Part shown: positions 4,721-62,900 of the stretch, one piece after another
Layout of the letters: every line of letters starts with the position of its first letter
How positions within the stretch are numbered: the stretch's first letter is position 1
Assembly: GCF_021295095.1 (NCBI RefSeq)
Contig: NZ_JAJLQX010000012.1
Location: forward strand, 1 to 64,000
DNA length: 64,000 bases
Direction: 5' to 3'
Source of the DNA: Phocaeicola oris
GTDB lineage: Bacteria; Bacteroidota; Bacteroidia; Bacteroidales; Bacteroidaceae
Made by a program: the position numbers and the translations under genes
Notes under the pieces: generated by a model
Database searches by the model: none
Told to the model about the DNA's origin: nothing
Seen by the model: only the letters and a program-made list of their open reading frames with translations

Positions 4721-5284
4721 CTTCAAAAGATAAAGGTAGTGATACGTTACAATGGTTATCTTAACGTGAATTCGATGAAATAACAGGAAGCCTATGTAGA
4801 AATCTACAAAGATGGAATACGACCTTATAGTATGTTTAAAACGATGTTTTTCTCTTTTTATCAGGTTCTTTAAAATTGCCATAAAGAGATTAGTAAAAGA
4901 GAACCGTATGAATCACTCAACTCATACGTATAATCTACTTGTTTCACCTATGTGAAACAAGTGACTCACATCAGTGAAACAAGTGTATCACATCTGTGAA
5001 ACGAATGTATCACATCTGTGAAACGAAAAATTCTTTTGATGAATACGGCAACATATATGACCACTTTCTTTGTTCCTACGTATCGGGGTAGTAGCCGCGT
5101 ACCATTGATTTCTTCAAAGATTTGCGTGTCTGTTTAAGAAGCTGCGGAGATATGCGGCTTACATTATTTTGAATTCGTCGAACTCACGTTATCTTATTGC
5201 TTTGCCCAATAAAAGAAGTAACGTATCACTACCATTACTCTGTCGAGATGTTTTCACAATGTTTTAGCAGAACAATAAAAAGAT
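4721..5284. other. Convergent intergenic region filled by repeat copy B
   Basis: Between the barrel stop and the convergent protease stop there are 564 bp. Almost all of it is repeat copy B with its two nested inverted repeats. I see no reading frame of interest and no clear intrinsic terminator. Confidence 0.6.
4735..5233 (+). repeat. Intergenic repeat family, full-length copy B with nested inverted ends
   Basis: The outer edges are a perfect 16-bp inverted repeat: GGTAGTGATACGTTAC at 4735-4750 and GTAACGTATCACTACC at 5218-5233. Inside are the family's own ends, TTAACGTGAATTCGATGAAA at 4761-4780 and the imperfect inverse GAATTCGTCGAACTCACGTT at 5171-5190. The central array is 4941-5024 (84 bp = 18+3x22), starting GTTTCAC and ending GTGAAAC, with spacers ctat, atca, atct and atct inside TCAC-N4-GTGA. 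Flank text is shared with copy F over about 430 bp. It carries no gene. Confidence 0.85.
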
Positions 5285-6883
5285 TCATTGTTTCTTGAAA
5301 AAGAGCTTATCGTAATCCTTTCTGTTCAGAAGTTCCAAAGCCTTTTTTACACTGAGATTAGATTCATTTACAATTTGATAGTATTCACTCATATCCCACA
5401 AATCCCTGGCGATTAATCCTTTTAACTGAAGTTTCATTTGAGGGAGTGATTTTTGATACTCTTCTTCATCCTTTGGGGTGATTTTCTCCTCCTTAGCCAT
5501 CTCAGCCAATTGCTTCATCATTTCATCTGTCACTTCAAATTTTCTATCAAAATCATCGAACTTCTTATACTTTGAAGCCCACTCTTCTCGATAAGTTTCA
5601 ATCAATTGGAAATGATATTTCAAAAGAATGCCATTCAAAGAAATCCGACGATGATACTTCGTATACATCGTTGTATCCATAGGAACAAAATAATCAGGCA
5701 TAATTCCACCTCCCCCATAAACAGTTCGCTTCAATTTTAATGTCTGGAACTTCAAAGAATCAGGGAAGCTAATGCTATCTTCACTCATCATCTCCCCACT
5801 GTTATATCGTTTTATAAGGTCTTCATTATAATCCTCGATACTCTTTCCATACGGTTTTTGGATACAACGGCCTGAAGGCGTATAATAACGAGCCACCGTT
5901 AAACGTATCATGGATCCGTCAGGCAAATCTACCGGACGTTGAACAAGTCCTTTTCCAAAACTTCTTCTTCCAACTACCAATGCACGATCCCAATCTTGCA
6001 ATGCTCCGGTAACAATTTCACTGGCCGAAGCAGAGAATTCATCAATCATCACAATCAGTTTTCCGTCATGAAACAATCCATTCCCTTTTGCACTAAAATC
6101 GCTTCGAGGATTTCTTCGTCCTGAAGTATAAACAATGAGATCTTTTTTACCTAAGAATTCATTCGCCACATTAATGGCAGCTTCCAAATACCCGCCTCCA
6201 TTACCCTGCAAATCGAGAATCAAATCTTTCATTCCTTCTCTTTGCAGTTTCTGCAACGCTTCTTGAAATTCTTTATGCGTAGTCGCAGCAAAACGACTGA
6301 TCTTTACATAACCTGTCCGCTTATTAATAAGATATGCGGCATCAATGCTATGGACCGGAATTTTATCACGACGAATGGTAAAATCAAGTAATCCGTCCAC
6401 TCCTCTGCGAAGTACTTTTATATTCACTTTTGTCCCTTTTGGCCCACGAAGCTTATTCATAATCTTCTCCGTACTTAATTTTACTCCGGCAATAGTAAAA
6501 TCATCAACCGACACAATTCTGTCGCCTGCAAGGACACCTACTTTTTCGGAAGGACCACCGGGAACCGGTTGGATAACCAGCAAGGTATCTTCCAGCATAT
6601 TGAATTGTACTCCGATTCCATCAAAATTTCCTTGCAAAGGCTCCGTAAGTTCCTTTACTTCCTTCGGATCGGAATAAGTAGAGTGAGGATCCAACTGTTG
6701 AAGCATCTTGATAATGGCACTGTCCACCAATTGAGCTTCATCCACTTCATCGACATACAAGTTGGCAATAGCATATTCTGCTATCTGTAATTTATTTGCC
6801 GGACGATTCATAAAAGGACGCTGCTGAGCTGTTAGCCCTGTAACAGTCATTAATAAAACAAATATGCTGATTATTTTCTTCAT
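5285..6883 (-). CDS. S41 family C-terminal processing peptidase (CtpA/Tsp type)
   Basis: The enzyme has 532 residues with a Sec signal (MKKIISIFVLLMTVTGLTAQ), so it should act in the periplasm and cleave proteins from their C-terminal ends. A PDZ domain spans about residues 80-165 (GNFDGIGVQF, GVLAGDRIVSVDD). The catalytic core follows, with GYVKISRF, the strand LILDLQGNGGG, and Ser286 in FSASASEI. Asp297 and Lys311 in RRSFGKGLVQ have the spacing of the known Tsp Ser/Lys site. It is last in the minus-strand run and starts 1 bp after coaD. That neighbourhood does not reveal its substrate. Confidence 0.93.
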   Translation of the reverse strand: MKKIISIFVLLMTVTGLTAQQRPFMNRPANKLQIAEYAIANLYVDEVDEAQLVDSAIIKMLQQLDPHSTYSDPKEVKELTEPLQGNFDGIGVQFNMLEDTLLVIQPVPGGPSEKVGVLAGDRIVSVDDFTIAGVKLSTEKIMNKLRGPKGTKVNIKVLRRGVDGLLDFTIRRDKIPVHSIDAAYLINKRTGYVKISRFAATTHKEFQEALQKLQREGMKDLILDLQGNGGGYLEAAINVANEFLGKKDLIVYTSGRRNPRSDFSAKGNGLFHDGKLIVMIDEFSASASEIVTGALQDWDRALVVGRRSFGKGLVQRPVDLPDGSMIRLTVARYYTPSGRCIQKPYGKSIEDYNEDLIKRYNSGEMMSEDSISFPDSLKFQTLKLKRTVYGGGGIMPDYFVPMDTTMYTKYHRRISLNGILLKYHFQLIETYREEWASKYKKFDDFDRKFEVTDEMMKQLAEMAKEEKITPKDEEEYQKSLPQMKLQLKGLIARDLWDMSEYYQIVNESNLSVKKALELLNRKDYDKLFFKKQ

Positions 6884-6884
6884 T

Positions 6885-7343
6885 TCATTCTAATTTAAGT
6901 CCCTTCGGCAAGAATTCAGACACATCTTTTCCGAAAGCCAGCATCTCACGTACATTTGTTGAAGTTACATAAGCTAATTCAGGCTCTGTGAACAATAATA
7001 TAGTCTCAATGCCTGACAAACGTTTATTTACCTCTGCCATGTTCTGCTCATATTCAAAATCAGTTACGGTACGTACACCTCGAATGATAAACTCAGCCCC
7101 CACTTCTTTCGCAAAATCAACCGTTAAGTTACTATAAGACATCACTTTTATGCTACGTTCATCTTTATAAACCTGCTTAATCATATTTACTCTCTTCTCT
7201 AAGGGGAAAAGTGTATTCTTAGAGATATTACAGTCGACAACACTAATGACAATCTCGTCCATGAAAGTCAATGCTCTGCGAACGATAGAATCATGTCCGA
7301 TAGTATACGGATCAAATGTACCGGGAAACAATGCTCTTCTCAT
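6885..7343 (-). CDS. coaD: Phosphopantetheine adenylyltransferase
   Basis: CoaD transfers AMP from ATP to 4'-phosphopantetheine, the penultimate step of coenzyme A synthesis in the cytoplasm. The 152-residue length is normal. The nucleotidyltransferase motif [13 protein letters not shown] is at residues 9-21, with the conserved region [20 protein letters not shown] in the middle and [10 protein letters not shown] near the end. The last is the usual ISS-x-x-VRE motif with a Thr-Ser-Thr-Asn variant. The start codon overlaps the stop of parE by 4 bp, which implies translational coupling. There is no sign of decay. Confidence 0.95.
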
Positions 7344-9298
7344 GCTTCAACCATATTTTCTGCCAAGTCTTCTTCAATAACTAAATTATCAATAATAAAT
7401 CCTTGACGTTCCATTGTGTTCTTCCCCATATAGAATTCCAACAGTTCTTTCACCTGATCGGTTTTACGCAGAGTAACTTGTTCCAAACGCATATCTTCTC
7501 CGATGAAAAACTTAAACTCATCCGGAGAAATCTCACCCAGACCTTTGAATCGAGTGATTTCCGGATCCGGTCCCAAATCTATAATAGCCTGCTGACGCTC
7601 CTCATCCGTGTAACAATAATACGTAATATAGTCACTCCGCTTTTCTTTCTGCCCCAATCTGGCATCCGATTCAGCTATCACCTTTTTATTCTTTATCTTT
7701 GTTCGTTTATTCCGGACACGGAATAAAGGAGTCTGCAAGATAAACACATGCCCCTTCTTTATCAGTTCAGGGAAGAATTGAAGGAAGAAAGTTATCATCA
7801 GTAAGCGGATATGCATGCCATCAACATCGGCATCAGTTGCTACAATTACTTTATTATAACGCAATCCATCCAAACCATCCTCTATATTCAATGCCGCCTG
7901 AAGCAAATTAAACTCCTCGTTCTCATAAACCACTTTCTTCGTCAACCCAAAAGAATTTAGTGGCTTACCTCTCAAACTAAACACCGCCTGAGTATTTACA
8001 TCTCTACTCTTAGTAATAGAACCGCTGGCAGAATCACCCTCTGTAATAAAGATGCAACTCTCTTCCTGTTTATCACCACGAGTATCCGTTAAATGGATAC
8101 GACAATCGCGTAACTTTCTATTATGTAAATTGGCTTTCTTCGCTCTTTCACGAGCTAATTTTGTCACACCGGCAATTGCTTTACGTTCTTTCTCCGAAGC
8201 CAGAATCTTAGTCAGCATAATATCCGCGATATCAGGATATTTATGAAGAAAGTTATCTACTTCTGTCTTTACAAAATCGGAAATGAACTTATTCACAGAC
8301 AATCCATCCGGTCCCATATTCGTAGACCCCAATTTTATCTTCGTCTGACTTTCAAACATTGGATTTTCCACATTGATAGCAATAGCAGCAACCAACCCGT
8401 TACGAATATCCGAATAATCCAAATTCTTATTATAAAACTCTTTAATCGTCCGAGCTAAATGCTCCTTAAATGCACTCTGGTGCGTTCCTCCCTGCGTAGT
8501 ATGCTGACCATTAACAAACGAATAATATTCCTCGCCATACTGATTTGTATGGGTAAAAGCAACCTCAATATCCTCACCTTTCAAATGAATGATATCATAT
8601 AAACCGGTTTCAGTCATATTATCATTCAACATATCAGCTAATCCGTTGCGGGAAATTATCTTCTTTCCATTAAATATGATTGACAGACCTGAGTTGAGAT
8701 AAGTATAATTACGGAGCATCGTTTCCACAAACTCAGGATTATAACTATAGTTTATAAATAAAGTGTTATCCGGCTCAAAGAATACAAATGTTCCGGTTGC
8801 TTCTGAAGAATCCTCTATTTTATCACTCTTCATATCACCCTTCTCGAACTGCAGTTCTCTTACTTTCCCATCTCGGAAACTTCGAACGATGAATAAAGAG
8901 CTTAATGCATTTACAGCCTTCAGGCCGACACCATTCAAACCTACACTTTTCTTGAATGCCTTGCTATCATATTTCGCTCCGGTATTCAACATAGAAACAG
9001 CTTCCACAAGTTTTCCTTGAGGAATTCCGCGGCCATAATCACGGACACAGACACGAAGATTATCTTCGACCGTAATCTCTATCTTACTTCCTGCATTCAT
9101 CTTGAATTCATCGATACTATTGTCGATAACCTCTTTCAGAAGGACATAGATACCATCTTCTATATGAGATCCATCGCCTAACCTTCCGATATACATACCA
9201 GGACGAGTCCTGACATGTTCCATATCAGTCAAATGCCGGATATTATCATCATTATATATTACGTTCTGATTTTTTAAGTGTTCTTCGTTCTCCACCAT
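7340..9298 (-). CDS. parE: DNA topoisomerase IV subunit B
   Basis: This is a type IIA topoisomerase ATPase subunit, which separates linked daughter chromosomes together with ParC. The 652 residues show [11 protein letters not shown], the GHKL ATPase motifs ([34 protein letters not shown]), the TOPRIM acidic residues in [10 protein letters not shown] and [12 protein letters not shown], and the C-terminal [12 protein letters not shown]. Subunit B of gyrase is very similar. The short length and lack of a long insert favour ParE, and the match to the Bacteroidetes-type ParE lets me call it so. parC is not in the window. It overlaps coaD by 4 bp and lies 25 bp after the upstream gene. Confidence 0.88.
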
Positions 9299-9323
9299 AT
9301 ATAGCTTTTAACCTCCTTTTTAA

Positions 9324-10454: not shown

Positions 10455-10524
10455 ATTTTTTATATATCAATATTGAGGTAAAATTACAAATATTTGTTCA
10501 ATCTAAAGAATCTTTCACTATTTT

Positions 10525-12796: not shown

Positions 12797-14269
12797 TCTT
12801 CTTCTTGAACGAAGATAAATAAATAAACCTGAAAGCAAAGTAAAAATCAATAATAACCCCGATATTTGTACATACCACGAACTAAATCCTTTTATTCCTA
12901 AAGAAAAGTATCTCCCTGTATGAAGCTCCAGAGCAAAATTCCATAAAGATAAAGGCTGCCGGATCATTTTCTTCGGCATTGCAGGCAGTAGTTTATCAGC
13001 CCCTTTCTGCTTAGTAAACACAACAGGGATTGGACCCAAATATTGGCTGAATCCGGAAACAGATATTGTTCTTCTCTTTTTGCTATTTGAATGATCGTCC
13101 TTTCCCTCTGTTCTTTTAGCATAGTCTTTCACTTGCTCTTTTTGAACATCAAATTTATAAAGCCCACTGACAGATCCTATCACCCAGTCTTTTCCAACCT
13201 TTTCAAAGACATTCACTCCCATAGCACTAATCTTCGGCTTTACCTTAAAAGGAATGGGAATTGCATCGAACGATTCCAGATGATACATCTTTCCAGATGT
13301 TATCAACAACCATTCACCCAACTGAGCATCCCATCTAATTGCTCTTAAACTGTCGTTAAAAGGATTATCTGAGACTAAAGTAGTACATGGCAACGGACTT
13401 ACTTCTATCTTTTTCAAAATAGAAGAAAGCGGATCACGCAGACAAATTCCTGTTACTGCTATTAATAATGTAAACACTATCAGCCAATAGCCAAAACGAT
13501 TATGCCATTTTATATTGGCTTTCATCAAAGTTGTTCCTCTTTTCCTTTTATCAACATTTTTTATATGCTTCATCCTGCTTTTCTTATAAGTAAAAGCTAT
13601 ACCTGTCACACATAATATAATTAGAACTATTGCGATGAAATCGACAAAAATCTTACCCGGAGTACCCAACAATTCACCACTATGAACCATCCAAATAGTT
13701 CTAAATAATGTAGTCTTTTTTGAATAATATCTTGCTGGACGAAGTATATGTTCTTCAAAATGAGTATAAGGGGGAAAGGACAAAAAAATTTTAGAACGTC
13801 CCAGCAAAACTAATGTATCCCCGCGTAAGGTCATATCCTCCAGTTCTTCTTTATCATCAAATATTTTCTTCCATGAACCATACTCCGACATTCTATATGC
13901 GGCAAAGTTGTTGATACACCAAAAGGATTTATCTGCAGTCTCAACCAAACTCAAAATTTTATGGTAATCGGCTCCTGAAGGAATACCTTTATTCATTTCA
14001 CGAAAAAAAGAAAAGCAAGAGTCCGTTTCCCAGACTCCTGCAATTCCATATGCCAAAAGTTTACCTTCTTTAGTTAGCAAAGTCCCCCGAATTGTTCCAT
14101 TGTTGTAATTATCTAACCGATAACTCTCAGGCATAATCTTTCTACTGACATCAAGACCGGCAAAAATCGCACGATGATTAATAATAATTCCTGATACTGA
14201 AAAGAATAGAATAATAATAGAAAATATTAATCCTACCCACTTATGACATACCCGAAGTATCTTTTTCAT
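12755..14269 (-). CDS. PepSY-domain membrane protein, probable iron-uptake partner
   Basis: The protein has 504 residues. It begins with a PepSY-associated membrane helix (KILRVCHKWVGLIFSIIILF) and has further helices near residues 190-225 (IFVDFIAIVLIILCVTGIAF), 255-280 and at the C-terminus. This is the layout of PepSY-TM proteins, several of which reduce or handle iron released from siderophores. The TonB-dependent receptor ends 3 bp upstream of its start, so the pair is almost certainly one operon for uptake of an iron chelate. The 3' end overlaps the convergent 11564 gene by 42 bp, so the two transcripts are complementary there. Confidence 0.82.
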   Translation of the reverse strand: MKKILRVCHKWVGLIFSIIILFFSVSGIIINHRAIFAGLDVSRKIMPESYRLDNYNNGTIRGTLLTKEGKLLAYGIAGVWETDSCFSFFREMNKGIPSGADYHKILSLVETADKSFWCINNFAAYRMSEYGSWKKIFDDKEELEDMTLRGDTLVLLGRSKIFLSFPPYTHFEEHILRPARYYSKKTTLFRTIWMVHSGELLGTPGKIFVDFIAIVLIILCVTGIAFTYKKSRMKHIKNVDKRKRGTTLMKANIKWHNRFGYWLIVFTLLIAVTGICLRDPLSSILKKIEVSPLPCTTLVSDNPFNDSLRAIRWDAQLGEWLLITSGKMYHLESFDAIPIPFKVKPKISAMGVNVFEKVGKDWVIGSVSGLYKFDVQKEQVKDYAKRTEGKDDHSNSKKRRTISVSGFSQYLGPIPVVFTKQKGADKLLPAMPKKMIRQPLSLWNFALELHTGRYFSLGIKGFSSWYVQISGLLLIFTLLSGLFIYLRSRRRLPKEHISDKNGSN

Positions 14270-14272
14270 ATA

Positions 14273-16342
14273 TTAATTAAACTTCAATTTTACCCCTGCT
14301 ACCAGCATTCTTCCCGAAGAAAGATATGCATAACGCCGTTTCGACCAATCTATACGATTATCTACCTTATCAAAGATGTTATCTACTCCTAAACTTGGCT
14401 CAACAAGGAATTTGCTAAAATGAAAGGAATGAGTCGTGTTCAATGAAACAGTTCCAAAACCGGGAGCATTCTCATAATCGATAAAATAGGTCTTACTCTG
14501 GAAACGGCCATTGAGATTGGCATTTAACGTATATTTTCCCCAAGAATGACTATAATTTGCGGCTACAGTAGCAGAGTTTTTCACACTACGCTCAAGTGTT
14601 TCCCATACACCGGCAGTTTTTGTCCTTGCATAAGTATAAGCATAGTTTGCTGTTATGCTCAAATCATTTGTAATAATGTAACTCGAATGAACATTAATGC
14701 CTTTAATTATTCCTTTATCACTGTTTACATATTGGCCATAGGTAGTCATCTTCTTAAAAGTAGCTTCTGTAATATCATTGGGAAACTCTTTCATCAGCAT
14801 GCTCTTTGCGGCATCATCAATAGAAAGATTATCTTTCACAATCATATCATCAATAAAGTTCATAAATCCGGTAATAGTAATACTGAAGCGATTATTTGTA
14901 TAACTTCCACTTAAAGAAATATAATCACTCGTCTCCGGATTCAAATCCTTATTTCCGAAAGTAACTACAAGCTTTCCACCCATCTTTGATTTGAAATAAT
15001 GATAATAAAGCTCATCCAATCCCGGAGCACGGAAGCCACGGGCATAGTTAATACGGAAATTGAAATCGCCCGGCGCAAAACTCAAAGCAACCTTTGGAGT
15101 AAACCGACTACCAAAAGTTTCATGTTTATCATATCGGACACCCAATGTCACACGAAAATCCTTTATCGCCTGCATATCATGCTGGCCGTAAGCCGACAAG
15201 GTATAAGCATGGTTATCTGTATTTCCTGCTGTTGCCAATAAAAAATCGTTTCTATAATCCAAACCGAAAATTGTAGTCGATTTTGAAGTAAAACGATTGA
15301 TATTCTTCAACTCTACATCATAGAACAGCTGTCTCTTCTTTAGATCATAGTCTCCTTTGGAAAAGTTTCCTGAGGCAGCAGAATTATATTCATAACCGTA
15401 ACGATAATTATCACTGGTAAAATCTATCTGCACACTATGTTTTTGGCTGAATTTATAGTTGGCTCCTGCATTGAAACGCAGTGTCTTAAAACGCAAATCA
15501 TAGGTATATCCGCCTTCTTTCCCTTCAATAGGCAAAGGACGATCTGTCATCTTATATGAGTGATTTATTTCTCCATAAACAGAAACTTTTTCAATAGGCT
15601 GATAACTTAAACGCTCACCAATACTGTTTGTGTGATAGCCGAGAAACAACGGATCAATGCATTCCTGCGTATCACCGGAATTGCCTTTGGCATATTCCAA
15701 CGGATTATTACGATAACTGTCAGCCTCATCATGCTTGAAGTTAGTAGAACTCGTCAGTCCTTTATAACTGATATTCACATTCGCGCTCTGAGTAAACTGC
15801 CCCTTTCCTGATATTCGAGTATTAGCCGTTACACTGACAAGCTGATCCTTAGGTTGAGAAGTGATAATATTGATTACACCGCCAATGGCATCACTGCCAT
15901 AAAGTGAAGAAGCAGCACCGTTCAGCACCTCAATACGCTTCACTTGTCCCATATTGATACGATCCAATTCAACATTTCCAGCAATATCTCCTGTTATCTT
16001 CCGCCCATTGATCAATATCAAAATATACTTGTTGCCTAAACCATTCAAACGAAGATAAGACCCCATCGCATTAGGCATAAATTCTACATTCGGCATCAAT
16101 TTTGTCAAAGCATCATTAAATGTTGATACGCCGGTCTTTTCTATCTCTCTATTAGTCATCACATGAACCGGAGTGGTTGACGATTTTAAATACTCATGAT
16201 GAGCATTTCCTGTCACCACAACCGGATTCATTTGAAAAATAGAATCTGCAAAGTTGATATATTCCCGCTTTTTATGATTTTGGGCAAAAGCACCCAAAAC
16301 AAATCCTCCTAAAACGACTGTAAAAATTAATTTCTTTACCAT
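14273..16342 (-). CDS. TonB-dependent outer-membrane receptor, likely siderophore or heme type
   Basis: The receptor has about 689 residues. I start at 16342, because MVKKLIFTVVLGGFVLGAFA is a standard signal peptide, rather than at the ATG 13 codons earlier. The plug domain covers about residues 40-160 (MNPVVVTGNAHHEYLKSSTT, VHVMTNREIEKTGVSTFNDA, VKRIEVLNGAASSLYGSDAI, GGVINIIT). A 22-strand type barrel follows and ends in aromatic and basic strands. It lacks the carboxypeptidase-like domain of SusC proteins and has no SusD, so it belongs to the iron/vitamin receptor class. The PepSY gene follows immediately, pointing to iron. No recognisable riboswitch lies upstream. Confidence 0.9.
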   Translation of the reverse strand: MVKKLIFTVVLGGFVLGAFAQNHKKREYINFADSIFQMNPVVVTGNAHHEYLKSSTTPVHVMTNREIEKTGVSTFNDALTKLMPNVEFMPNAMGSYLRLNGLGNKYILILINGRKITGDIAGNVELDRINMGQVKRIEVLNGAASSLYGSDAIGGVINIITSQPKDQLVSVTANTRISGKGQFTQSANVNISYKGLTSSTNFKHDEADSYRNNPLEYAKGNSGDTQECIDPLFLGYHTNSIGERLSYQPIEKVSVYGEINHSYKMTDRPLPIEGKEGGYTYDLRFKTLRFNAGANYKFSQKHSVQIDFTSDNYRYGYEYNSAASGNFSKGDYDLKKRQLFYDVELKNINRFTSKSTTIFGLDYRNDFLLATAGNTDNHAYTLSAYGQHDMQAIKDFRVTLGVRYDKHETFGSRFTPKVALSFAPGDFNFRINYARGFRAPGLDELYYHYFKSKMGGKLVVTFGNKDLNPETSDYISLSGSYTNNRFSITITGFMNFIDDMIVKDNLSIDDAAKSMLMKEFPNDITEATFKKMTTYGQYVNSDKGIIKGINVHSSYIITNDLSITANYAYTYARTKTAGVWETLERSVKNSATVAANYSHSWGKYTLNANLNGRFQSKTYFIDYENAPGFGTVSLNTTHSFHFSKFLVEPSLGVDNIFDKVDNRIDWSKRRYAYLSSGRMLVAGVKLKFN

Positions 16343-16741
16343 ATTATTATTTTTTTGATCCTTTATCCTGACGATGACCAACGTCCGCCAGTATTACTGC
16401 TATATTAGAGTTATTACTCTTAACTTTCTTTTGTTTTTCGCTCTAAAAATAGAGGTTAAAAAAAAGAAAGACAATACCTATTAGTAATGATTCAAATAAA
16501 ATAAAATACCCTTTTATAGGTAGATTTTCATGGACAATTCATTTTTTCTGAATCAAAATACTGTATCATAAAAAAGATTAATCTCACAAAAACGCCACAA
16601 AGTAATTGAGTTTATATAAAGGTATGAGATTGTATAAAATAATTTCTATCAAAAGACAAAAGAGATAGGTATTTCAAAAATAATCATACGAACAAGCAAG
16701 CCCAGCCATACGAATTGTCGATTTTATTAGAAGTTTTGAGC

Positions 16742-16875
16742 AAGCCAGTCATACGTATCAGCTCATACGGATCAATCCGTCAACTCATACGCATGAACTG
16801 ATCAATTCATGCGGATCATTTCAACAACTCATACGCATCAATTTACCAACTCATACGCATGAACTTTTGAAGAGA
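16742..16875. repeat. Intergenic repeat family, short copy C (TCATACG repeats only)
   Basis: Five variants of TCATACGNAT occur in about 120 bp, separated by TCAATC/TCAATT steps. The central CAACTCATACGCATGAAC, TGATCAATTCATGCGGATCA text matches copy A near 500. There is no GTTTCAC/GTGAAAC array. It lies between two divergent genes. Confidence 0.6.
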
Positions 16876-17069
16876 TATTTATGAGTTTCCCGGATGTTAC
16901 TCAACAGCAACTTCTCCCTTGCTAACAAACAGGAGAAGAGAAGAAGAAAGCTATTCTTTTTTATCACTTATAAATTCATTTTATTCCACATCCAAAAACA
17001 ATATTCTATTCATCTTTTAAATCCCCCCATTTTGTTGATTTCAAGTTAGAATATAAAATAAAATTCCAC

Positions 17070-17077
17070 TATCTTTG
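17070..17077 (+). promoter_or_regulatory. Bacteroides-type -7 box (TATCTTTG)
   Basis: It is an exact TAnnTTTG match 35 bp upstream of the ATG at 17113. Confidence 0.6.
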
Positions 17078-17112
17078 CAACACCATTTGAAATTTTGTAA
17101 TCCGTATTAAAG

Positions 17113-25029: not shown

Positions 25030-25215
25030 ATACGAACGTATACCCGAAATAATGCGTATGAGTTGCCGTATTCATCAGTATGAATTCTTCGTTTCACTTA
25101 GGTGATTCACTTGTTTCACTTAAGTGAAACGAACGAATGATACGCATGAGTTTTGCAGATGATACGTATGAACAAACAAATACTTCTGATAAATACGGGA
25201 ACTCATACATATCGC
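25030..25215 (-). repeat. Intergenic repeat family, copy D (hybrid ends)
   Basis: The array is 25091-25130 (40 bp = 18+1x22), with spacers ttag and ttaa. To its left is the reverse complement of the family's right flank (GCGTATGAGTTGCCGTATTC, then ATCAGTATGAATTCTTC). Well to its right, past GATACGCATGAG, is another right-flank text in forward orientation (AATACTTCTGATAAATACGG). Both sides therefore carry the same flank type. No full terminal inverted repeat is found. Confidence 0.7.
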
Positions 25216-29825: not shown

Positions 29826-30235
29826 TAATTTATCAACTCACGTCGACTATAAAATTAACAACATAAAGTATTATTCAATAAAAGATGATACCATCCGTAT
29901 GAAAGAGAACAATTCTTTGGAGATGAAATAACTTTATTTCTTGAATAAAATAGAATGTATTCTTCTGTTTGTTCCGAAGACTATACTTGATTTACTTATT
30001 TGTCAGCGCAGTCAAATAAAGTAATGTGAATGAATTGTCTAACTCACGCGGATGATTTATTCGTTTCACAGAGGTGAGTCACTTGTTTCACAGAGGTGAG
30101 TCACTTGTTTCACAGAGGTGAGTCACTTGTTTCACAGAAGTGAGTCATTTGTTTCACAGAAGTGAAACGAAAAAATCTTCTGATGAATACGAAAACTTAT
30201 ATGTATCATTTTCTTTGTTTATATGCGTTGAAACA
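29826..30235 (+). repeat. Intergenic repeat family, copy E (array inverted relative to flanks)
   Basis: The array is 30063-30168 (106 bp = 18+4x22), spacers agag three times then agaa twice. The right flank GAAAAAATCTTCTGATGAAT is in forward orientation, as in copies B, F and H. The repeated unit, however, reads GTGAGTCACTT then GTTTCAC, which is the reverse complement of the unit in those copies. The left part, from AACTCACGTCGAC at about 29834, is shared with copy A and includes the gene fragment. Confidence 0.8.
29889..29948 (+). pseudogene. Fragment of the 72-residue unknown gene
   Basis: From the codon after a stop, the frame reads YHPYEREQFFGDEITLFLE and then stops. It matches the last 17 residues of the protein at 224-442 with one Ser to Thr change, and the DNA match over 57 bp has two differences. 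The rest of the gene is missing, so this is a leftover tail carried next to repeat copy E. Confidence 0.6.
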
Positions 30236-36663: not shown

Positions 36664-37094
36664 TTAACGTATGTTCGATGAAATAACAGAAGAGTCATGT
36701 AGAAGCCTACAAAGGTAGAATAAGCCGTTATAGTATGTTTAAACTGTGTTTTTACCTTTTTATCAGGTTCGTTAAAATACTCACAAAGAGATTAGTCAAA
36801 GTAATCCGTATGAATTACTCAACTCATACGTATAATTCATTTGTTTCACACTAGTGAAACGAGCGAATCACATCTGTGAAACAAGTGAATCACATTTGTG
36901 AAACAAGTGAATCACATCTGTGAAACGAAAAATACTTCTGATGAATATGGCAACTTATATGGTTTACTTTCTTTGTTTCTACGTATCGGAGTAGTAGTTG
37001 CATGTTATTGATTTCTCTAAAGATTTGTTTGTCTGTTTAAGTAGAAATAATGATACACAGCTTGTTTTATTTAGATTTGTCGAACTCATGTTAA
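36664..37094 (+). repeat. Intergenic repeat family, full-length copy F
   Basis: Its 431 bp lie between TTAACGTATGTTCGATGAAA (36664-36683) and the imperfect inverse GATTTGTCGAACTCATGTTA (37074-37093). The array is 36843-36926 (84 bp = 18+3x22), spacers acta, atct, attt and atct, with units GTGAAAC plus AAGTGAATCAC. Shared flank blocks with copy B include TTCGATGAAATAACAG, TTTTTATCAGGTTC, AAAGAGATTAGT, CAACTCATACGTATAAT on the left, and ACTTTCTTTGTT and GTCTGTTTAAG on the right. Confidence 0.85.
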
Positions 37095-49482: not shown

Positions 49483-49827
49483 AGAAGTCAATCGACTTAT
49501 GATTTTTCTCCGATAAATACATGATATTTGGGATTAACAATATCACGTACTAATCTGATACGTATGAACATGAAAAGAAATGCATATAAGTTGCCGTATC
49601 TATCAGAAGATTTCTTCGTTTCACAAGAGTGAAACAAGTGAATCACATAGGTGAAACAAATGTCTCACAAGAGTGAAACAAATGAATATACGTATGAGTT
49701 GGACAATTCATACATATCACTTTTCATAATCTCTTTATGATAAAGTTACCGTATACTAATTAAAGAATAATTGGTATAGTGATTCCTGCCCACGATGCCT
49801 TAGTGTGTTTTTGCGAAAAAGGGTCAG
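49483..49827. other. Convergent intergenic region with repeat copy G
   Basis: The 345-bp gap between two stops holds repeat copy G. A weak 5-bp hairpin (AAGTC/GACTT at 49485-49498) lies just after the macro-like gene and may be its terminator. Confidence 0.5.
49555..49735 (-). repeat. Intergenic repeat family, copy G (reverse, array inverted relative to flanks)
   Basis: The array is 49618-49679 (62 bp = 18+2x22), spacers aaga, atag and aaga. The left flank ATAAGTTGCCGTATC, CAGAAGATTTCTTC and the right flank ATACGTATGAGTTGG, ATATCACTTTTCATAATCTC are reverse complements of the family's right and left flanks, so the copy is reversed. The units, however, read GTGAAAC plus AAGTGAATCAC, the forward order. 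Confidence 0.78.
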
Positions 49828-54340: not shown

Positions 54341-54358
54341 AGTGAATCACATTTGTGA
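54341..54358. repeat. Solitary unit of the 22-bp repeat
   Basis: AGTGAATCACATTTGTGA is identical to 18 bases of a unit in copy F (36880s). There is no array around it. It lies in the 231-bp gap between leuS and the small membrane protein gene. Confidence 0.5.
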
Positions 54359-55131: not shown

Positions 55132-55646
55132 TTAACGCGAATTCAATAAGATATAAGTATCTATAAGCTTGATGGCTGGTTCAGGTTATTTTACCATATA
55201 TTTTTATAATGCAGTTTTTGCTGAAAGGATATGTTGAACCTAAACTTTAGGAATAAAGGTCTTACAGCGTATTTGAACGATGTTTTAGCCTTTTCGTCAG
55301 ATTCATTAAATTGGTTATCAAGAGATTTTGAAAAGTGATTCGCATGAATCGTCCAACTCATACGGATGATTCTTTTGTTTCACATTAGTGAAACGCATGA
55401 CTCACATAGGTGAAACGCATGACTCACATTAGTGAAACGCATGACTCACATTAGTGAAACACATGACTCACATTAGTGAAACGAGAAAATCTTCTGAAGA
55501 ATACGGCAACTTATACGATTCACTTTTCACGTTCATACGCATTCGAATAATAATTGTTATGGGTGGTTGACAAGAGAGTCGTGTATTACTTCAAAAAAGT
55601 AGTGATGACCGGCTTGTATTATTTAAATTCGTCGAACTCACATTAA
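55132..55646 (+). repeat. Intergenic repeat family, longest full-length copy H
   Basis: Its 515 bp run from TTAACGCGAATTCAATAAGA (55132-55151) to the imperfect inverse AATTCGTCGAACTCACATTA (55626-55645). The array is 55377-55482 (106 bp = 18+4x22), spacers atta, atag, atta, atta and atta. Inner arms are inverted too: GAAAAGTGATTCGCAT at 55330-55345 faces ATACGATTCACTTTTC at 55513-55528. The left flank is about 80 bp longer than in copies B and F. Confidence 0.85.
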
Positions 55647-57315: not shown

Positions 57316-57454
57316 ATCCTTTTTTTATTATTGTTTCTTCTTGCAAATGTATGAAATTGACAGACTTTCCTCATACTTAATTCTATTAAAAGTTTAAAAA
57401 ATATAGGAGTATGTGATAATTTATTTGTTTCTTTGCAGGAAATTAGGTAGAGAG

Positions 57455-58351
57455 GTGAATAAACTCCATATTGTTACTTGTCCGCTGTGTGGCGGAAATC
57501 ATCTTAAGCCGGTGATGTTGTGTACAGACCATTTTGCTTCGGGGGAACAGTTCGAAGTATGGGAGTGTGCGGATTGCGGTTTCACCTTTACTCAGGATGT
57601 ACCTGTTGAAGCAGAAATAGGAAGGTATTATGAAACACCGGAGTATATCTCGCATTCCGATACCGAAAAGGGATTGATGAATAAAGTTTATCACATTGTT
57701 CGTCAGTTTATGCTTCGTAAAAAAGTTCGTTTGATAGAACGGGCTTCCCATGTAAAGAATGGACAATTGCTGGATATCGGGACAGGTACCGGCTATTTCC
57801 CTTTTACTGCTCAAAAGTTCGGCTGGAAAGTTCAAGCTATTGAGAAAAATGCGAAAGCAAGAGTTTTTGCCAAGGAGCATTTTCACTTGGATGTGCAAGG
57901 CGATGAAGCTTTTGATGTTTTGCCGGATAAGACGTTTGATGTGATTACAATGTGGCATGTGATGGAGCATATAGAGCATTTGAATGAACTTTGGGAACAG
58001 TTTCATCGATTGTTAAAAGAACAGGGCGTTTTAGTTATTGCTGTTCCGAATCATCATTCTTATGATGCTAAAAAGTATGGTTCTTGGTGGGCAGCTTATG
58101 ATGTGCCTCGTCATCTTTGGCATTTTACTCCATCGGTAATTAAAAAGATGGGAGAGAAGCATAAGTTTGAATTGGTTGAACAACATCCGATGCCGTTTGA
58201 CGCGTTCTATGTTTCTATGCTCACCGAAAAGTATAAAGGGGCAAAACTTCCTTTTTTGAAAGGACTATGGACAGGATGTAATGGTTGGTTGCATGCTTTG
58301 CGTGATAAAGGTCAGAGCAGTTCCATGATATATGTTTTTAGAATGAAGTGA
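57455..58351 (+). CDS. Class I SAM-dependent methyltransferase with N-terminal zinc ribbon
   Basis: The protein has about 298 residues. I prefer the GTG at 57455. The ATG at 57413 would add 14 odd residues, and a near -7 box (TTTCTTTG at 57428-57435) lies within that stretch. A zinc ribbon (CPLCGG and CADCGF, four Cys) comes first. The methyltransferase motif I is LLDIGTGTGYFPFTA near residue 105, motif post-I is VQAIEKN, and MWHVMEHIEHLNE is typical of the type-12 fold used on small molecules and cell-envelope precursors. The target is unknown. The ftsX ATG follows 2 bp after the stop. Confidence 0.85.
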   Translation: MNKLHIVTCPLCGGNHLKPVMLCTDHFASGEQFEVWECADCGFTFTQDVPVEAEIGRYYETPEYISHSDTEKGLMNKVYHIVRQFMLRKKVRLIERASHVKNGQLLDIGTGTGYFPFTAQKFGWKVQAIEKNAKARVFAKEHFHLDVQGDEAFDVLPDKTFDVITMWHVMEHIEHLNELWEQFHRLLKEQGVLVIAVPNHHSYDAKKYGSWWAAYDVPRHLWHFTPSVIKKMGEKHKFELVEQHPMPFDAFYVSMLTEKYKGAKLPFLKGLWTGCNGWLHALRDKGQSSSMIYVFRMK

Positions 58352-58353
58352 TT

Positions 58354-59223
58354 ATGGGAAAGAATAAAACTTCTTTTTTTGATATGCAATTTATAACTTC
58401 CGGCATTAGTATCATGTTGGTATTGTTGCTGTTGGGTATGGTTGTGTTCTTTGTATTGTCGGCAAATAACTTATCAAAATATGTTCGTGAAAACATTAGT
58501 TTCGCAGTGATGTTAAGCGATGACATGAAGGAACCAGAAGCTTTGACTTTCCAGAAATATTTGAGTGAGAAACCATACGTTAAGGATTGTATGTTTATCT
58601 CTAAGGAGCAAGCCTTGAAAGAACAGACAGAAACAATGGGTACGAATCCTGCTGAGTTCGTGGGTCATAATCCTTTTCCATCGAGTCTTGAAGTAAAACT
58701 CAAAGCTAATTATGCATTATCTGATAGTATTCGTTGGATAGAGAAGGAGATTCTGTCGAATAAGAAAGTTTTAGAGATAGATTATCCGGAAGATTTGCTA
58801 AATGATGTAAACGGAAACATTCGGAAGATAAGCATTGGATTATTATGTTTGGCAGCTTTGCTGACGCTTATTTCTTTTGCTTTGATAAATAGTACTATTC
58901 GTTTGGCTATTCATTCTAAACGTTTTCTTATACATACGATGACTCTTGTAGGAGCCAGTTGGGGATTTATCCGCCGACCATTCCTTTGGAAAAACGTATG
59001 GATTGGCGTGTTTGCTGCAGTGTTAGCCGATGTAACGTTGATAGGAATGGCTTATGCTCTGGTTCGTTATTGGCCGGAACTGATAGAAATCATCACCCCA
59101 TCAGTTGTTTTGATTGTCATGTCTTCTGTCTTTGTTTTCGGTGTTCTTATAACATTGATATGTTCGTATATTTCTATTAATAAATACTTGCGGATGAAAG
59201 CAAGTGCTTTATATTACATTTAA
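58354..59223 (+). CDS. ftsX: Cell division permease FtsX
   Basis: The protein has about 289 residues from the ATG at 58354. The GTG two codons earlier overlaps the previous stop. Four helices are seen: one near residue 20 (SGISIMLVLLLLGMVVFFVL) and three in the C-terminal half (ISIGLLCLAALLTLISFALI and two more). The extracytoplasmic ECD lies between them. DPEALTFQKYL-like text and NPFPSSLEVKLKANY are FtsX-specific. With FtsE it activates peptidoglycan hydrolases at the division site. ftsE is not in the window. DUF3098, uppP and truB follow, a gene order I recall as conserved in Bacteroidetes. Confidence 0.92.
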   Translation: MGKNKTSFFDMQFITSGISIMLVLLLLGMVVFFVLSANNLSKYVRENISFAVMLSDDMKEPEALTFQKYLSEKPYVKDCMFISKEQALKEQTETMGTNPAEFVGHNPFPSSLEVKLKANYALSDSIRWIEKEILSNKKVLEIDYPEDLLNDVNGNIRKISIGLLCLAALLTLISFALINSTIRLAIHSKRFLIHTMTLVGASWGFIRRPFLWKNVWIGVFAAVLADVTLIGMAYALVRYWPELIEIITPSVVLIVMSSVFVFGVLITLICSYISINKYLRMKASALYYI

Positions 59224-59227
59224 TAAT

Positions 59228-59458
59228 ATGGATAAAAAGAATTTTGCATTTGATAAGGTTAACTTCATTCTTTTGGCTGTTGGAATGGTGATTGTTATCT
59301 TGGGATTTGTATTGATGGCAGGTCCCGCAACAAATGAAACAGCTTTTCAGCCGGATATCTTTAGTGTTCGCCGCGTCCGAGTTGCTCCGGTTGTTTGTTT
59401 TCTTGGTTTCGTGTTTATGATTTATGGCGTTTTGCGAAAGCCGAAAGATAACGAATAA
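59228..59458 (+). CDS. DUF3098 family membrane protein
   Basis: The protein has 76 residues from the ATG at 59228. It has two hydrophobic helices (FILLAVGMVIVILGFVLMAG and VAPVVCFLGFVFMIYGVL) joined by a loop with NETAFQPDIFSVRRVR. This small family is typical of Bacteroidetes and nearly always, as I recall, found between ftsX and uppP. It may help cell envelope synthesis or division, but no function is established. The ATG is 4 bp after ftsX and the stop 9 bp before uppP. Confidence 0.9.
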   Translation: MDKKNFAFDKVNFILLAVGMVIVILGFVLMAGPATNETAFQPDIFSVRRVRVAPVVCFLGFVFMIYGVLRKPKDNE

Positions 59459-59467
59459 ACAAATAGT

Positions 59468-60268
59468 ATGGATTGGTTACAGGCATTAGTCCTTGGCATT
59501 ATTCAAGGACTGACAGAATATCTACCGGTCAGCAGTAGTGGTCATTTGGCTATTGGCGCAGCTTTGTTTGGCGTTGATGGAGAAGATAATCTTACCTTTA
59601 CTATTGCGGTGCATATTGCTACAGTCTTAAGTACATTGGTTATACTTTGGAAAGAAATTGTTTGGATTTTCAACGGCCTTTTTAAGTTCCGGTGGAATGA
59701 TGAGACAAAATATGTGGTGAATATTATTATTTCTATGATTCCTATTGGAATTGTAGGTTTGTTCTTTAAAGATAAAGTAGAAGAGATTTTTGGTTCCGGT
59801 TTATTTATTGTCGGATTGATGTTGATTCTCACAGCTATTCTTCTTGCCTTTTCTTATTATGCTAAGCCCCGAGTAAAGGAACATATTACTAAAAAAGATG
59901 CATTCATTATAGGTTTAGCTCAGGCATGTGCTGTGATGCCGGGATTATCTCGTTCGGGTTCAACCATCGCAACGGGACTAATGCTGGGCGATAAGAAGGA
60001 GAAGTTAGCCCAATTCTCTTTTCTTATGGTTATTCCTCCTATTCTTGGCGAAGCTTTGCTTGATGGAATGAAGATAGTGAAAGGCTCGGCCGAAGGTTCC
60101 ACCGATATTTCTTTAACTGCTCTGATTGTCGGATTTTTAGCAGCTTTCATCTTCGGATGTATGGCTTGCAAGTGGATGATAAACATTGTTAAGAAAGGAA
60201 AGCTTATTTACTTTGCTATTTATTGTGCTATCATAGGACTTATAACAGTTATCGGTACATTAGTTTGA
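59468..60268 (+). CDS. uppP: Undecaprenyl-diphosphatase (BacA type)
   Basis: The enzyme has 266 residues and about seven helices in the inner membrane. It removes phosphate from undecaprenyl diphosphate to recycle the lipid carrier of peptidoglycan and other glycans. The two active-site motifs are intact: [17 protein letters not shown] near residue 15 with the conserved Glu and Ser, and [16 protein letters not shown] near residue 155 with the catalytic Ser/Arg. Overexpression of such enzymes gives bacitracin resistance. truB starts 5 bp downstream. Confidence 0.97.
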
Positions 60269-60273
60269 TTTAA

Positions 60274-60984
60274 ATGAATTTTATAGAGGGAGAAATTTTA
60301 TATTTTGATAAACCGTTAAAGTGGACATCTTTTTCGGTAGTGAATAAGGTTCGCTATCATTTGAGTCACAAACTTGGTGTGAAGAAGATTAAGGTGGGAC
60401 ATGCCGGTACGCTCGATCCGTTAGCTACAGGCGTAATGATTATCTGTACAGGGAAAGCCACAAAACGTATCGAAGAATTTCAGGGACATACTAAAGAATA
60501 TATCGCCACTTTACGTTTGGGTGCCACTACTCCGTCTTTTGACATGGAGCATCCTATCGATGAAACATATCCTACAGAGCATATAACAAAAGAATTGGTA
60601 GAAAAGACGTTGAAGACTTTTATTGGGAGTATAAAACAGGTTCCTCCTGTTTATTCTGCTTGTAAAGTGGAAGGAGAACGTGCTTATAAGTTCGCTCGTC
60701 GTGGAGAGGAAGTTCAATTGAAACCAAAGACTTTAACCATTGACGAGATAGAATTGTTAGCGTATAATATGCCCGTTATTAAGATTCGTATTGTTTGTAG
60801 TAAGGGTACTTATATCAGAGCATTAGCTCGTGACATAGGTTTTGCGCTTCGCAGCGGAGCGTATCTTATTGAACTTCGGCGGACAAGGGTGGGCAATATA
60901 AAAGTAGAAGACTGTATGAAGGTAGACGACTTCACTGAGTGGTTGGATAAACAGGAAATAGAAAAGCTTGAAAGGAATGATTAG
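60274..60984 (+). CDS. truB: tRNA pseudouridine(55) synthase
   Basis: The enzyme has 236 residues. It makes pseudouridine 55 in the T-loop of tRNAs. DKPLKWTSFSVVNKV is the N-terminal signature. The catalytic Asp is in HAGTLDPLATGVMII, near residue 48. RIVCSKGTYIRALARDIG is the third conserved block. It has no C-terminal PUA domain, the usual short form in Bacteroidetes. It ends the run that starts at the methyltransferase gene. A separate promoter for queA lies in the 129-bp gap that follows. Confidence 0.96.
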   Translation: MNFIEGEILYFDKPLKWTSFSVVNKVRYHLSHKLGVKKIKVGHAGTLDPLATGVMIICTGKATKRIEEFQGHTKEYIATLRLGATTPSFDMEHPIDETYPTEHITKELVEKTLKTFIGSIKQVPPVYSACKVEGERAYKFARRGEEVQLKPKTLTIDEIELLAYNMPVIKIRIVCSKGTYIRALARDIGFALRSGAYLIELRRTRVGNIKVEDCMKVDDFTEWLDKQEIEKLERND

Positions 60985-61027
60985 TATCCCTTTTTGTTTG
61001 ATTTATGTTTTCTTAACGCATAATCTC

Positions 61028-61059
61028 TTGACAACCCCTATCTCTGAGTAGTAATTTTG
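61028..61059 (+). promoter_or_regulatory. Bacteroides promoter for queA
   Basis: TTG at 61028-61030, 21 bp, then TAATTTTG at 61052-61059. The ATG is 54 bp downstream of the box. Confidence 0.55.
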
Positions 61060-61113
61060 CAATAGAATCGTATTTAGACTATTAGGAGATAATAGTTTGT
61101 AAATCATTAGGAC

Positions 61114-62166
61114 ATGAAACTTTCACAATTCAAATTCAAATTACCGGAAGAAAAAATTGCTTTATATCCATCACATTTCCGTGATGAATGTAAGTTAATG
61201 GTCGTCCATAAATCGACAGGTGAGATAGAGCACAAGGAGTTTAAGGAGATTCTTGATTATTTTAATGATCAAGATGTGTTTGTTTTTAACGATACTAAAG
61301 TGTTTCCTGCCAGACTCTATGGAAATAAGGAGAAAACAGGTGCACGTATCGAAGTATTCTTGCTCCGTGAACTGAATGAGGAGTATAGATTATGGGATGT
61401 ATTGGTCGATCCTGCTCGGAAAATTCGCATAGGAAACAAACTTTACTTTGGTGAGGATGATTCTATGGTGGCAGAGGTAATTGATAATACCACTTCTCGT
61501 GGGCGTACCCTTCGTTTCTTATATGACGGCCCGCACGATGATTTTAAGAAAGCGCTTTATGCATTGGGCGAAGCTCCGCTACCTACATTTATTAATCGCA
61601 AGGTGGAATCGGAGGATTTAGAACGTTTCCAGTGTATCTTTGCTAAGAGTGAAGGTGCAGTAACGGCTCCTACTGCGGGTTTGCATTTCAGTCGTGAGTT
61701 GATGAAACGTTTGGAAATTAAAGGAATTGATTTTGCTTATATTACATTGCATGCAGGTTTAGGAAATTTCCGTGATATTGACGTGGAGGATTTGACGAAG
61801 CATAAGATGGATTCTGAACAAATGTTTGTTACTAAAGAAGCTTGCAATGTGGTTAACAAGGCGAAAGATAACGGAAAAAATGTTTGTGCTATAGGAACTA
61901 CCGTTATGCGTGCCATTGAAACAGCTGTTGGTACCGACCAACGATTGAAGGAGTTTGATGGTTGGACGAATAAATTCATTTTCCCACCTTATGAGTTCTC
62001 TTTGGCAAACAGTATGATTAGTAACTTCCAGCTACCTTATTCTACTTTGCTGATGCTAACTTGTGCGTTTGGCGGTTATGATTTGATAATGCACGCTTAT
62101 GAGGTAGCTTTACAGAACGATTATAAGTTTGGAACTTATGGCGATGCCATGCTGATCCTTGAATAA
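61114..62166 (+). CDS. queA: S-adenosylmethionine:tRNA ribosyltransferase-isomerase
   Basis: The enzyme has 350 residues. It moves the ribosyl part of SAM to preQ1 in tRNA, giving epoxyqueuosine. Conserved text includes [29 protein letters not shown]-like [28 protein letters not shown] and [17 protein letters not shown]. Length and motifs are normal. folK follows after 5 bp. No preQ1 riboswitch is seen upstream, so regulation is probably not by precursor level. Confidence 0.97.
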
Positions 62167-62171
62167 ATGTA

Positions 62172-62669
62172 ATGGCAACCGTTTATTTAGGCTTAGGTAC
62201 TAATTTAGGAAATAGAGAGCAAAATTTGCATTTTGCTGTGGAACAGATACAGAAGCGGATAGGGGATGTTATCACCTTGTCCGCTTTTTATATGACAGAG
62301 CCTTGGGGATTTCAGTCGACTAATTCTTTTTTGAATGCTGCTTGTGCCGTTCAAACAAACTATACACCTGAAGAACTTCTTCTTGTAACGCAAAGCATTG
62401 AGAAACAAATTGGAAGGAAAGAAAAGAGTATCAATCGAATCTATTCCGATAGGCTTATCGATATTGATATCCTTTTATATGATGAGGTAATTGTGAATTC
62501 AAAGGAACTGGTTATTCCACATCCGCTGATGGAACAGCGACGTTTTGTTTTGGAACCTTTAGTGGAGATAGCTCCGGATGTTATACACCCTATATTAAAA
62601 GAACCGATAAGAACTTTATTTTCTGAAAAAGAAATTTTACTCGAGTCTTATCATCATGCTTTAAGTTAA
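62172..62669 (+). CDS. folK: 2-amino-4-hydroxy-6-hydroxymethyldihydropteridine diphosphokinase
   Basis: The enzyme has 165 residues. It transfers pyrophosphate from ATP to hydroxymethyldihydropterin in folate synthesis. The N-terminal LGLGTNLGNREQNL is the start of the family fold. FYMTEPWGFQSTNSFLNAAC and SDRLIDIDILLYDEVIVNS carry the substrate and Mg-binding residues (the Asp-x-Asp in DIDIL). It ends the plus-strand run before repeat copy I and metK. No fusion to folP or folB is present. Confidence 0.96.
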   Translation: MATVYLGLGTNLGNREQNLHFAVEQIQKRIGDVITLSAFYMTEPWGFQSTNSFLNAACAVQTNYTPEELLLVTQSIEKQIGRKEKSINRIYSDRLIDIDILLYDEVIVNSKELVIPHPLMEQRRFVLEPLVEIAPDVIHPILKEPIRTLFSEKEILLESYHHALS

Positions 62670-62679
62670 TATTCAATTA

Positions 62680-62900
62680 TTCTGTTGATGCGTATGAGTT
62701 GTCGTATTCATCTGCATGAATTTCTCGTTTCACAAGAGTGAAACAATTGTTTCACTTAAGTGAAACGAACGAATCATCTGTATGAGTTGAGTTATTTATA
62801 CGATTCGCTTTTCAAAGTCTCTTGATGAACAATTTAATGAGTTTGATAAAGAAACTAAACCTTTGTTTAAACATATCGTACGGCCTTTTTTATTTAAAGT
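62680..62900 (-). repeat. Intergenic repeat family, reversed copy I
   Basis: The array is 62727-62766 (40 bp = 18+1x22): two full palindromes GTTTCAC-aaga-GTGAAAC and GTTTCAC-ttaa-GTGAAAC joined by AATT, so it has no direction. Left flank GCGTATGAGTTGTCGTATTC and right flank ATACGATTCGCTTTTCAAAG, TAAACATATCGTACGGCC are reverse complements of the family flanks (compare CTTATAGTATGTTTA in copy B). Terminal repeats are missing, so it is truncated. Confidence 0.75.

Follow-up and report, generated by a model that had tools for sequence, protein, structure and literature searches.

Repetitive extragenic palindromes and bacterial interspersed mosaic elements (REP/BIME) are dispersed, intergenic palindromes, and arrays of clustered regularly interspaced short palindromic repeats (CRISPR) are made of short tandem units. 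The arrays described here differ from these in the strict 11-bp pitch of their half-sites and in their lack of unique spacers. They lie in a stretch of 64,000 nucleotides of Phocaeicola oris DNA (assembly GCF_021295095.1, contig NZ_JAJLQX010000012.1), which is called the window throughout this text. They form the minisatellite core carried by a miniature inverted-repeat transposable element (MITE), asymmetric, small and non-coding, that is dispersed through the genome.

The element is a BrickBuilt-like minisatellite MITE, although its transposon type is a different one and its unit is far more strictly kept. BrickBuilt of Porphyromonas gingivalis is likewise a tandem repeat carried by a MITE that has no coding sequence and whose two flanks, the leader and the tail, differ. 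It is also intergenic and dispersed (19 copies), bears terminal repeats like those of an insertion sequence (IS) and includes some copies without one or both ends (PMC4596501). The number of BrickBuilt units, too, is variable, as it changes between strains (PMC4596501). The BrickBuilt unit is of 23 nt with up to 6% indels, while the unit here is of 22 bp and no dyad is out of phase, a comparison made by description and not by unit sequence; the BrickBuilt terminal repeat, GAGACC..., is IS5-like and has inconsistent target duplications, in contrast to the ACGTGARTTCGA repeat and the 7-bp duplications found here (PMC4596501). Neither the 23-nt unit nor the GAGACC-type repeats by which BrickBuilt is recognized were found in this element.

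Other described MITEs resemble the carrier. In P. gingivalis, MITE239 (ACGTGAGTTCGATATAAAGGAA) and the right end of MITE700 (TCGAACTCACGT) match the terminal repeats of the element (PMC4596501). According to the same source, these two MITEs show no apparent uptake of mini- or microsatellites and their repeat is tied to ISPg3, which is listed as IS5, while the evidence here points to IS982 (PMC4596501). MITECca01 of Cardinium is, like the present element, a Bacteroidota MITE that is transposase-free and present in many copies, and it derives from the IS982 family, which is the likely source of the present element as well; it differs in being of about 240 bp, and no mention of tandem repeats was found in a search of the text (PMC9769881). 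At the level of the single heptamer, the cap GTTTCAC/GTGAAAC equals the half-site of parS, the binding site of ParB (PMC7022226). Nevertheless, the halves of parS abut instead of being separated by 4 bp, parS varies at other positions, and the sites described here come in array form (PMC7022226). No paper on these arrays or on their shared heptamer grid was found in the collection of openly licensed papers that was searched.

Structure of the arrays and the length rule

In a first inspection of the window from its letters alone (the sequence-only reading), seven arrays were claimed that begin with GTTTCAC, end with GTGAAAC and carry TCAC-N4-GTGA within each unit, with a length of 18 + 22n bp. 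The coordinates, the lengths (40, 40, 62, 84, 84, 106 and 106 bp), the caps and the units were all exact (7/7). On the plus strand lie the arrays at 4941..5024 (n = 3, that is, four dyads), inside a complete MITE; at 30063..30168 (n = 4); at 36843..36926 (n = 3), in a MITE copy with three mismatches in the left and one in the right terminal repeat; and at 55377..55482 (n = 4), with a right terminal repeat near 55632-55643 (one mismatch). On the minus strand lie those at 25091..25130 (n = 1), where the MITE flanks are degenerate and neither terminal repeat was found; at 49618..49679 (n = 2), also with degenerate MITE flanks; and at 62727..62766 (n = 1), with in-phase dyads of a second type, the T-type described below, at 62708 and 62774. 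The dyad pattern TCACNNNNGTGA matches the window 26 times against 0.49 expected, a number reached by none of 100 shuffles, and 25 of these matches are inside the seven arrays, the remaining one being a lone dyad at 54347.

The lengths can be derived from a finer rule. Every array consists of GTGANNC heptamers that point alternately one way and the other, with a gap of exactly 4 bp from each to the next; the first of them reads GNNTCAC and the last GTGANNC. Because the number of heptamers is even, 2(n + 1), the length is 11 × 2(n + 1) − 4, that is, 18 + 22n. These arrays, in which the arms read TCAC and GTGA, are referred to as C-type.

The rule holds beyond the window. The genome is a draft of 2,975,682 bases in 50 contigs, in which the window represents bases 1-64000 of contig C3, and 36 further arrays were fetched around search matches elsewhere in it. 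Of the 125 dyad pairs that the genome was counted to have, 116 are in the resulting 43 arrays, so a few arrays are missing from the set; two single dyads without GT..AC caps and one hand-trimmed dyad at 30041 were left out of the counts. This last dyad, TCACGCGGATGA at 30044 (30041-30058, one arm mismatch), is in phase and one 22-bp step to the left of the array at 30063. All 43 arrays have a length of 18 + 22n, with n from 0 to 7 (0 in four arrays, 1 in four, 2 in nine, 3 in 15, 4 in seven, 5 in three and 7 in one), and no dyad is off phase. Thus, copies of arbitrary length, which the sequence-only reading had named as evidence against its rule, were not found. A count that imposed no phase gave a similar picture: among 191 distances of up to 100 bp between consecutive TCAY-N4-RTGA dyads, 188 are multiples of 22 (172 at 22, 15 at 44 and one at 66) and three are not, in 70 stretches (245,761 bases) most of which had been fetched for holding such repeats. 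The rule covers only the part from cap to cap, and weaker dyads carry the 22-bp grid on into the flanks.

The caps are GTGAAAC in 81 of 86 cases. The 234 internal heptamers are more diverse (GTGAAAC 119, GTGATTC 51, GTGAGAC 24, GTGATAC 18, GTGAGTC 16, GTGAGGC 5 and ATGAAAC 1). With regard to genes, the seven arrays of the window and 40 of the 43 overall are outside open reading frames of at least 80 aa, with 21 arrays between tandem genes, 13 between convergent, eight between divergent genes and one in unknown context, that is, with no gene-context bias.

A CRISPR array was also considered and ruled out, as the sequence-only reading had held: the spacers are not unique but 10-bp variants of one theme, all of the form NNCNNNNGNN, with C and G fixed in 117/117.

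The carrier MITE

In most of the 43 copies, the array is found between one type of flank on each side, in the layout B flank, array, A flank. The terminal inverted repeats, ACGTGARTTCGA, are IS982-like, and near-identical copies place the ends of the element at ACGTGAATTCGA on the B side and TCGAACTCACGT on the A side. When up to two mismatches are allowed, both terminal repeats are present in six copies, only the left in five, only the right in six and neither in 26. In five of the six copies with both ends, 382-448 bp long, a 7-bp target duplication is seen with six or seven of its seven positions matching. The duplicated target has the form TANNNTA, with TATCTTA, TAAGATA and TAATTTA exact and TATTATA/G and TAAAATT/A bearing one change. 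The sixth copy is that of the array at 55377, where the left terminal repeat is doubtful (two mismatches) and the duplication matches in 3/7. The element therefore has features by which MITEs are recognized: terminal inverted repeats, a target duplication of fixed length, short size, absence of a transposase, and dispersed, mostly intergenic copies.

The complete copy of the window, on the plus strand, spans 4757..5196 with its target TATCTTA duplicated at 4757-4763 and 5190-5196, and the element proper, ACGTGAATTCGA...TCGAACTCACGT, occupies 4764-5189 (426 bp). The copy around the array at 36843 extends over 36667..37091 on the same strand, and its ends read ACGTATGTTCGA and TCGAACTCATGT.

Among the matches listed, the MITE occurs in only one of 61 genomes of the genus, the source genome itself, and in seven others the match is confined to all or part of the outermost 49 bases of the A end. 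The MITE stretch has no match in the plasmid collection that was searched. A phage origin was considered as well and rejected; the pattern matches a single stretch of the viral collection, on a GC-rich contig and in another context.

The likely mover

At 14 contig ends of the draft there is an IS end with AACGTGAGTTCGA as its first bases, seven for each type of end, and two of them read into the start of a transposase. Such a pattern would be expected if identical IS copies had broken the assembly. One left end, which matches the ends of the MITE, is in the window at 1..211 on the minus strand, with AACGTGAGTTCGA at 199-211 and the start of a transposase, MITESKVIEIFCMADDFCKFF...

Further evidence comes from locus L068 (contig C1, 1371-1410 and 1374-1739), a chimaera of the B side of the MITE, an array and a fragment of a similar transposase. 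Here, the array supplies the tail of the reading frame of the fragment, and this is one of the three exceptions to the location of the arrays outside open reading frames of at least 80 aa. The match of the fragment to the IS982 profile NF033520 is weak, with 26.7 bits for a cut-off of 130 (E 3.7e-6). An intact IS982 transposase, with 220.8 bits and thus above the cut-off, is found at C13:15734, where it is flanked by inverted repeats TACGCGAGTTCGG that have 3/13 mismatches to the repeat of the MITE. We therefore consider it likely that a transposase of the IS982 family moves the element.

Gain and loss of units

The array at 4941 and the copies L076, L084 and L093 are sisters, with B and A flanks that are 96.6-100% identical, and have n = 3, 3, 2 and 4, respectively. 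The closest pairs make the point most directly: L076 and L084 share flanks that are 98.9% and 100% identical and have n = 3 and 2, and the array at 4941 and L093 share flanks that are 99.4% identical on each side and have n = 3 and 4. Thus, whole 22-bp units have been gained or lost between sister copies, and the expansion and contraction that the sequence-only reading had suggested were borne out. Selection to keep phase, which it had also proposed, need not be invoked, since gain or loss of whole units always retains 18 + 22n by itself. At the lower end of the series is the n = 0 form, an 18-bp palindrome GTTTCAC-N4-GTGAAAC with four copies.

Most arrays have a polarity relative to the element, with 23 oriented one way, 13 in the opposite way and three mixed. 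Within polar dyads the N4 is also directional, as in ATCT, which is seen 23 times, versus AGAT, which is seen once. As the N4 keeps its direction in polar dyads, flipping of the N4 is at most rare, and a possible instance is the first N4 of the array at 4941, which is CTAT and reads ATAG in its three sisters.

Conservation of the arms

It is the invariance of the arm bases, and not the phase, that calls for explanation. Across 160 dyads, 1279 of 1280 fixed arm positions are kept. In 23 A-anchored elements, the identity of the A flank to one query does not exceed 90%, and yet none of their 696 arm positions is changed, where roughly 53 changes would be expected. This expectation was set at half of the divergence that BLAST gave for short pieces of flank, with 27 of the 28 A-anchored arrays supplied. 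Conservation of the arms so far above that of the flanks suggests either sequence-specific binding or homogenisation.

A search with the flanks only, which avoids choosing elements by their dyads, was also performed. Among the matches listed, 29 of 42 rows for the A flank adjoin 28 of the 43 arrays, and 21 of 41 rows for the B flank adjoin 21 of them. Another 29 flank stretches were read, and 28 of these hold chains of T-type units (at least three units, in a loose count) and one, L190, holds none.

These T-type chains represent a second 22-bp unit, TCAT-NCGN-ATGA, carried by the same MITE backbone. The central CG of its N4 is present in 62 of 70 T-type dyads and in none of 156 C-type dyads, and dyads of both types can share one grid within one element.

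The grid in other bacteria

A strict pattern of two dyads was found in 30 stretches. They belong to 11 named assemblies, and the title of each reads Bacteroidaceae, Tannerellaceae, Bacteroides, Parabacteroides or Phocaeicola. Without the demand for GTTTCAC, the pattern occurs in 12 of 399 genomes of the family, the source genome included, while the reversed control gave 1. A looser pattern of four dyads (TCA/TGA only, two mismatches) was unspecific, as it occurred in 12 of 393 genomes of the order with 7 for the reversed control, and consequently arrays across the order are not claimed.

At 42 loci outside the source genome, the core has four dyads in 32, three in two, five in six and six in two, when 2 of 8 mismatches are tolerated for each added dyad and one orthologous pair is included. 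The heptamers in these genomes are mostly GTGATAC, GTGAGAC and GTGAGGC. In six of the eight groups compared, the flanks have no sequence in common between loci. These flanks are nevertheless periodic, with a fraction of matches of 0.381 at a lag of 22 and 0.346 at a lag of 44 versus 0.249-0.288 at the other lags tested. In addition, they are mirrored (at least 8 of 12 bases) at 13 of 32 loci versus 2.9% between loci, with the Kf353 genome left out, in contrast to the arrays of the source genome, which show no locus-specific mirroring (mean 6.40 versus 6.21). The Kf353_bin89 assembly (L009-L035) holds many arrays between mirrored, 22-bp-periodic flanks, with units like ACTAATGATTAGGTCGGGAACA. 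One heptamer grid, usually of four dyads, recurs in other genera outside the MITE, which hints at a protein that reads it.

Proposed explanation and alternatives

The explanation that we favor, and regard as somewhat more likely than not, is that of a MITE moved by IS982 whose arrays grow by whole units and whose arms are kept by putative protein binding. There is little doubt about its beginning: the carrier is an asymmetric MITE with ACGTGARTTCGA terminal repeats, five copies of which have a 7-bp target duplication. An IS982-family transposase, supplied by an IS with identical ends, probably moves it. The founder was almost certainly the 18-bp palindrome (n = 0), which grew and shrank by whole 22-bp units, presumably through slippage or unequal recombination. 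Finally, the GTGANNC heptamers, with their pitch of 11 bp, might be contacted by a twofold-symmetric DNA-binding protein on one face of the helix; such binding would preserve the bases of the arms and leave the inner N4 free to drift. Our opinion is evenly divided on whether the heptamers are contact sites of such a candidate protein. As other genera have the grid outside the MITE, the partner would more likely come from the host than be the IS982 transposase.

Several observations weigh against this explanation. No array-binding protein was found, and homogenisation between copies could also keep the arms alike without binding. The 53 changes expected in the arms are a rough figure, and decayed arrays are under-counted because arrays were found through their dyads. 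For instance, a C-type dyad in which one arm base is changed stands at the end of the mosaic L192. Between P. vulgatus and a near relative (L134, L142) the core is, by eye, hardly more conserved than the flanks (91-93%). As for the carrier, neither terminal repeat is seen in 26 of 43 copies, and the link to IS982 rests on a fragment and on likeness of the terminal repeats, as the full parent IS is absent from the assembly.

The arrays might instead be a functionless minisatellite, a passenger of the MITE kept uniform by its recent spread and by recombination between copies. We consider this unlikely, but it has points in its favor: the gain and loss of units between sisters and the unbiased gene context agree with it, and the confinement of the MITE to the source genome, among the matches listed, fits a recent amplification. 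Nevertheless, the inner N4 and the NN of the heptamers vary freely while the arms do not, the arms are intact even in copies whose A flanks are 79-82% identical, and the grid recurs in other genera within unrelated flanks. Selection for folding, with the palindromes acting as RNA or single-stranded DNA hairpins (a terminator, an RNase site or a cruciform), appears improbable to us. Five strands of the window arrays do fold better as RNA than their shuffles (z −3.0 to −4.2), their caps can pair with each other, each of the four n = 0 forms is a perfect hairpin, and cores in other genomes are often between locus-specific inverted repeats (the 13 of 32 loci mentioned above). However, palindromic arms fold well whatever their cause, and the bases next to the arms are complementary less often than by chance: of 78 internal dyads, one has a complementary inner NN pair, where shuffles average 29, and of 117 spacer-centred dyads, three have a complementary outer pair, where shuffles give 44. 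The N4 words are complementary in 2 of 70 nested pairs, and no compensatory arm changes were seen in 160 dyads. Complementarity below chance next to the arms favors sequence recognition over folding, with the caveat that common descent of polar direct repeats may contribute. In a scan of the window with Rfam at gathering score, the only hit was a SAM-II riboswitch at 63104-63163, and no RNA family was found at the arrays.

In another alternative, ParB or a paralogue would bind the heptamers, and through the MITE secondary ParB sites would be distributed along the chromosome. Some ParB proteins bind half-parS (GTTTCAC) at hundreds of sites (PMC7022226), and the caps, GTGAAAC in 81 of 86, equal half of parS. 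A near-perfect parS is present at C3:85910, on the same contig as the window, and this contig holds nine of the 43 arrays versus 1.4 expected (p 9e-6; 2e-4 by simulation over contigs), a density that is biased because the window was singled out for its arrays. Along C3, the cumulative GC skew is lowest near 16 kb, and the evidence from genes did not settle an origin on C3. In contrast to the abutting half-sites of parS, those of the arrays are separated by 4 bp in every dyad; the variable position is position 4 in parS (GTGNAAC) and positions 5 and 6 in the array heptamers (GTGANNC); and no more than 119 of the 234 internal heptamers read GTGAAAC, with different heptamers favored in other genomes. 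Canonical-like abutting sites (TGTTNCACGTGNAACA) occur only at C3:85910 and C6:36000, each with one mismatch, and no array dyad has this form. For these reasons we give ParB a very small chance. An assembly artefact or mere chance deserves hardly any credence, since, even in a draft of 50 contigs, there are 26 dyads in the window for 0.49 expected, the arrays are at most 172 bp long and stand inside contigs between unique flanks, and the grid is present in 11 other named assemblies.

The explanation by an IS982-moved MITE with protein-kept arms can be set in a broader view, which we offer as speculative and rather doubtful. A family of intergenic palindromic elements across Bacteroidaceae and Tannerellaceae would have a core of four dyads (eight GTGANNC heptamers at a pitch of 11 bp, 84 bp) between 22-bp units peculiar to each genome and, in many cases, between inverted repeats peculiar to each locus. 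The core would be the docking site of a conserved candidate protein. In the source genome, an IS982-type MITE would have taken up one such element and carried it to more than 40 loci. The docked protein might organise the chromosome or assist transposition, and its recognition of the centre would differ from genome to genome.

Other features of the window and its contig

Two T-type arrays of 22-bp units are found on the plus strand of the window, one at 16757..16860 with about 4.7 copies of AACTCATACGCATGA units and another, partly decayed, at 466..561. The former lies in a gap within the region of about 16000-17100, near the cumulative GC skew minimum of C3, where the direction of the genes changes from minus to plus. 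The parS at C3:85910 (L225, L222) is between genes that resemble apt and mnmG, as named by eye. Finally, a tRNA-Ile was called at 13251-13336 on the minus strand, inside a gene for a PepSY-domain protein, and may be a false positive.

Significance

With these results, the length rule becomes a half-site code that can be tested, as alternating GTGANNC heptamers are always 4 bp apart. In addition, the natural arrays of this one genome, whose flanks are near-identical and whose half-sites number from 2 to 16, form a ready dose series for any effect on binding or expression. If the arrays are a passenger satellite, they would still join BrickBuilt as a second clear case of a MITE in Bacteroidales that bears a minisatellite. 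If, on the other hand, it is true that one protein family reads the grid across genera, this would be an unrecognised family of sites in abundant gut bacteria.

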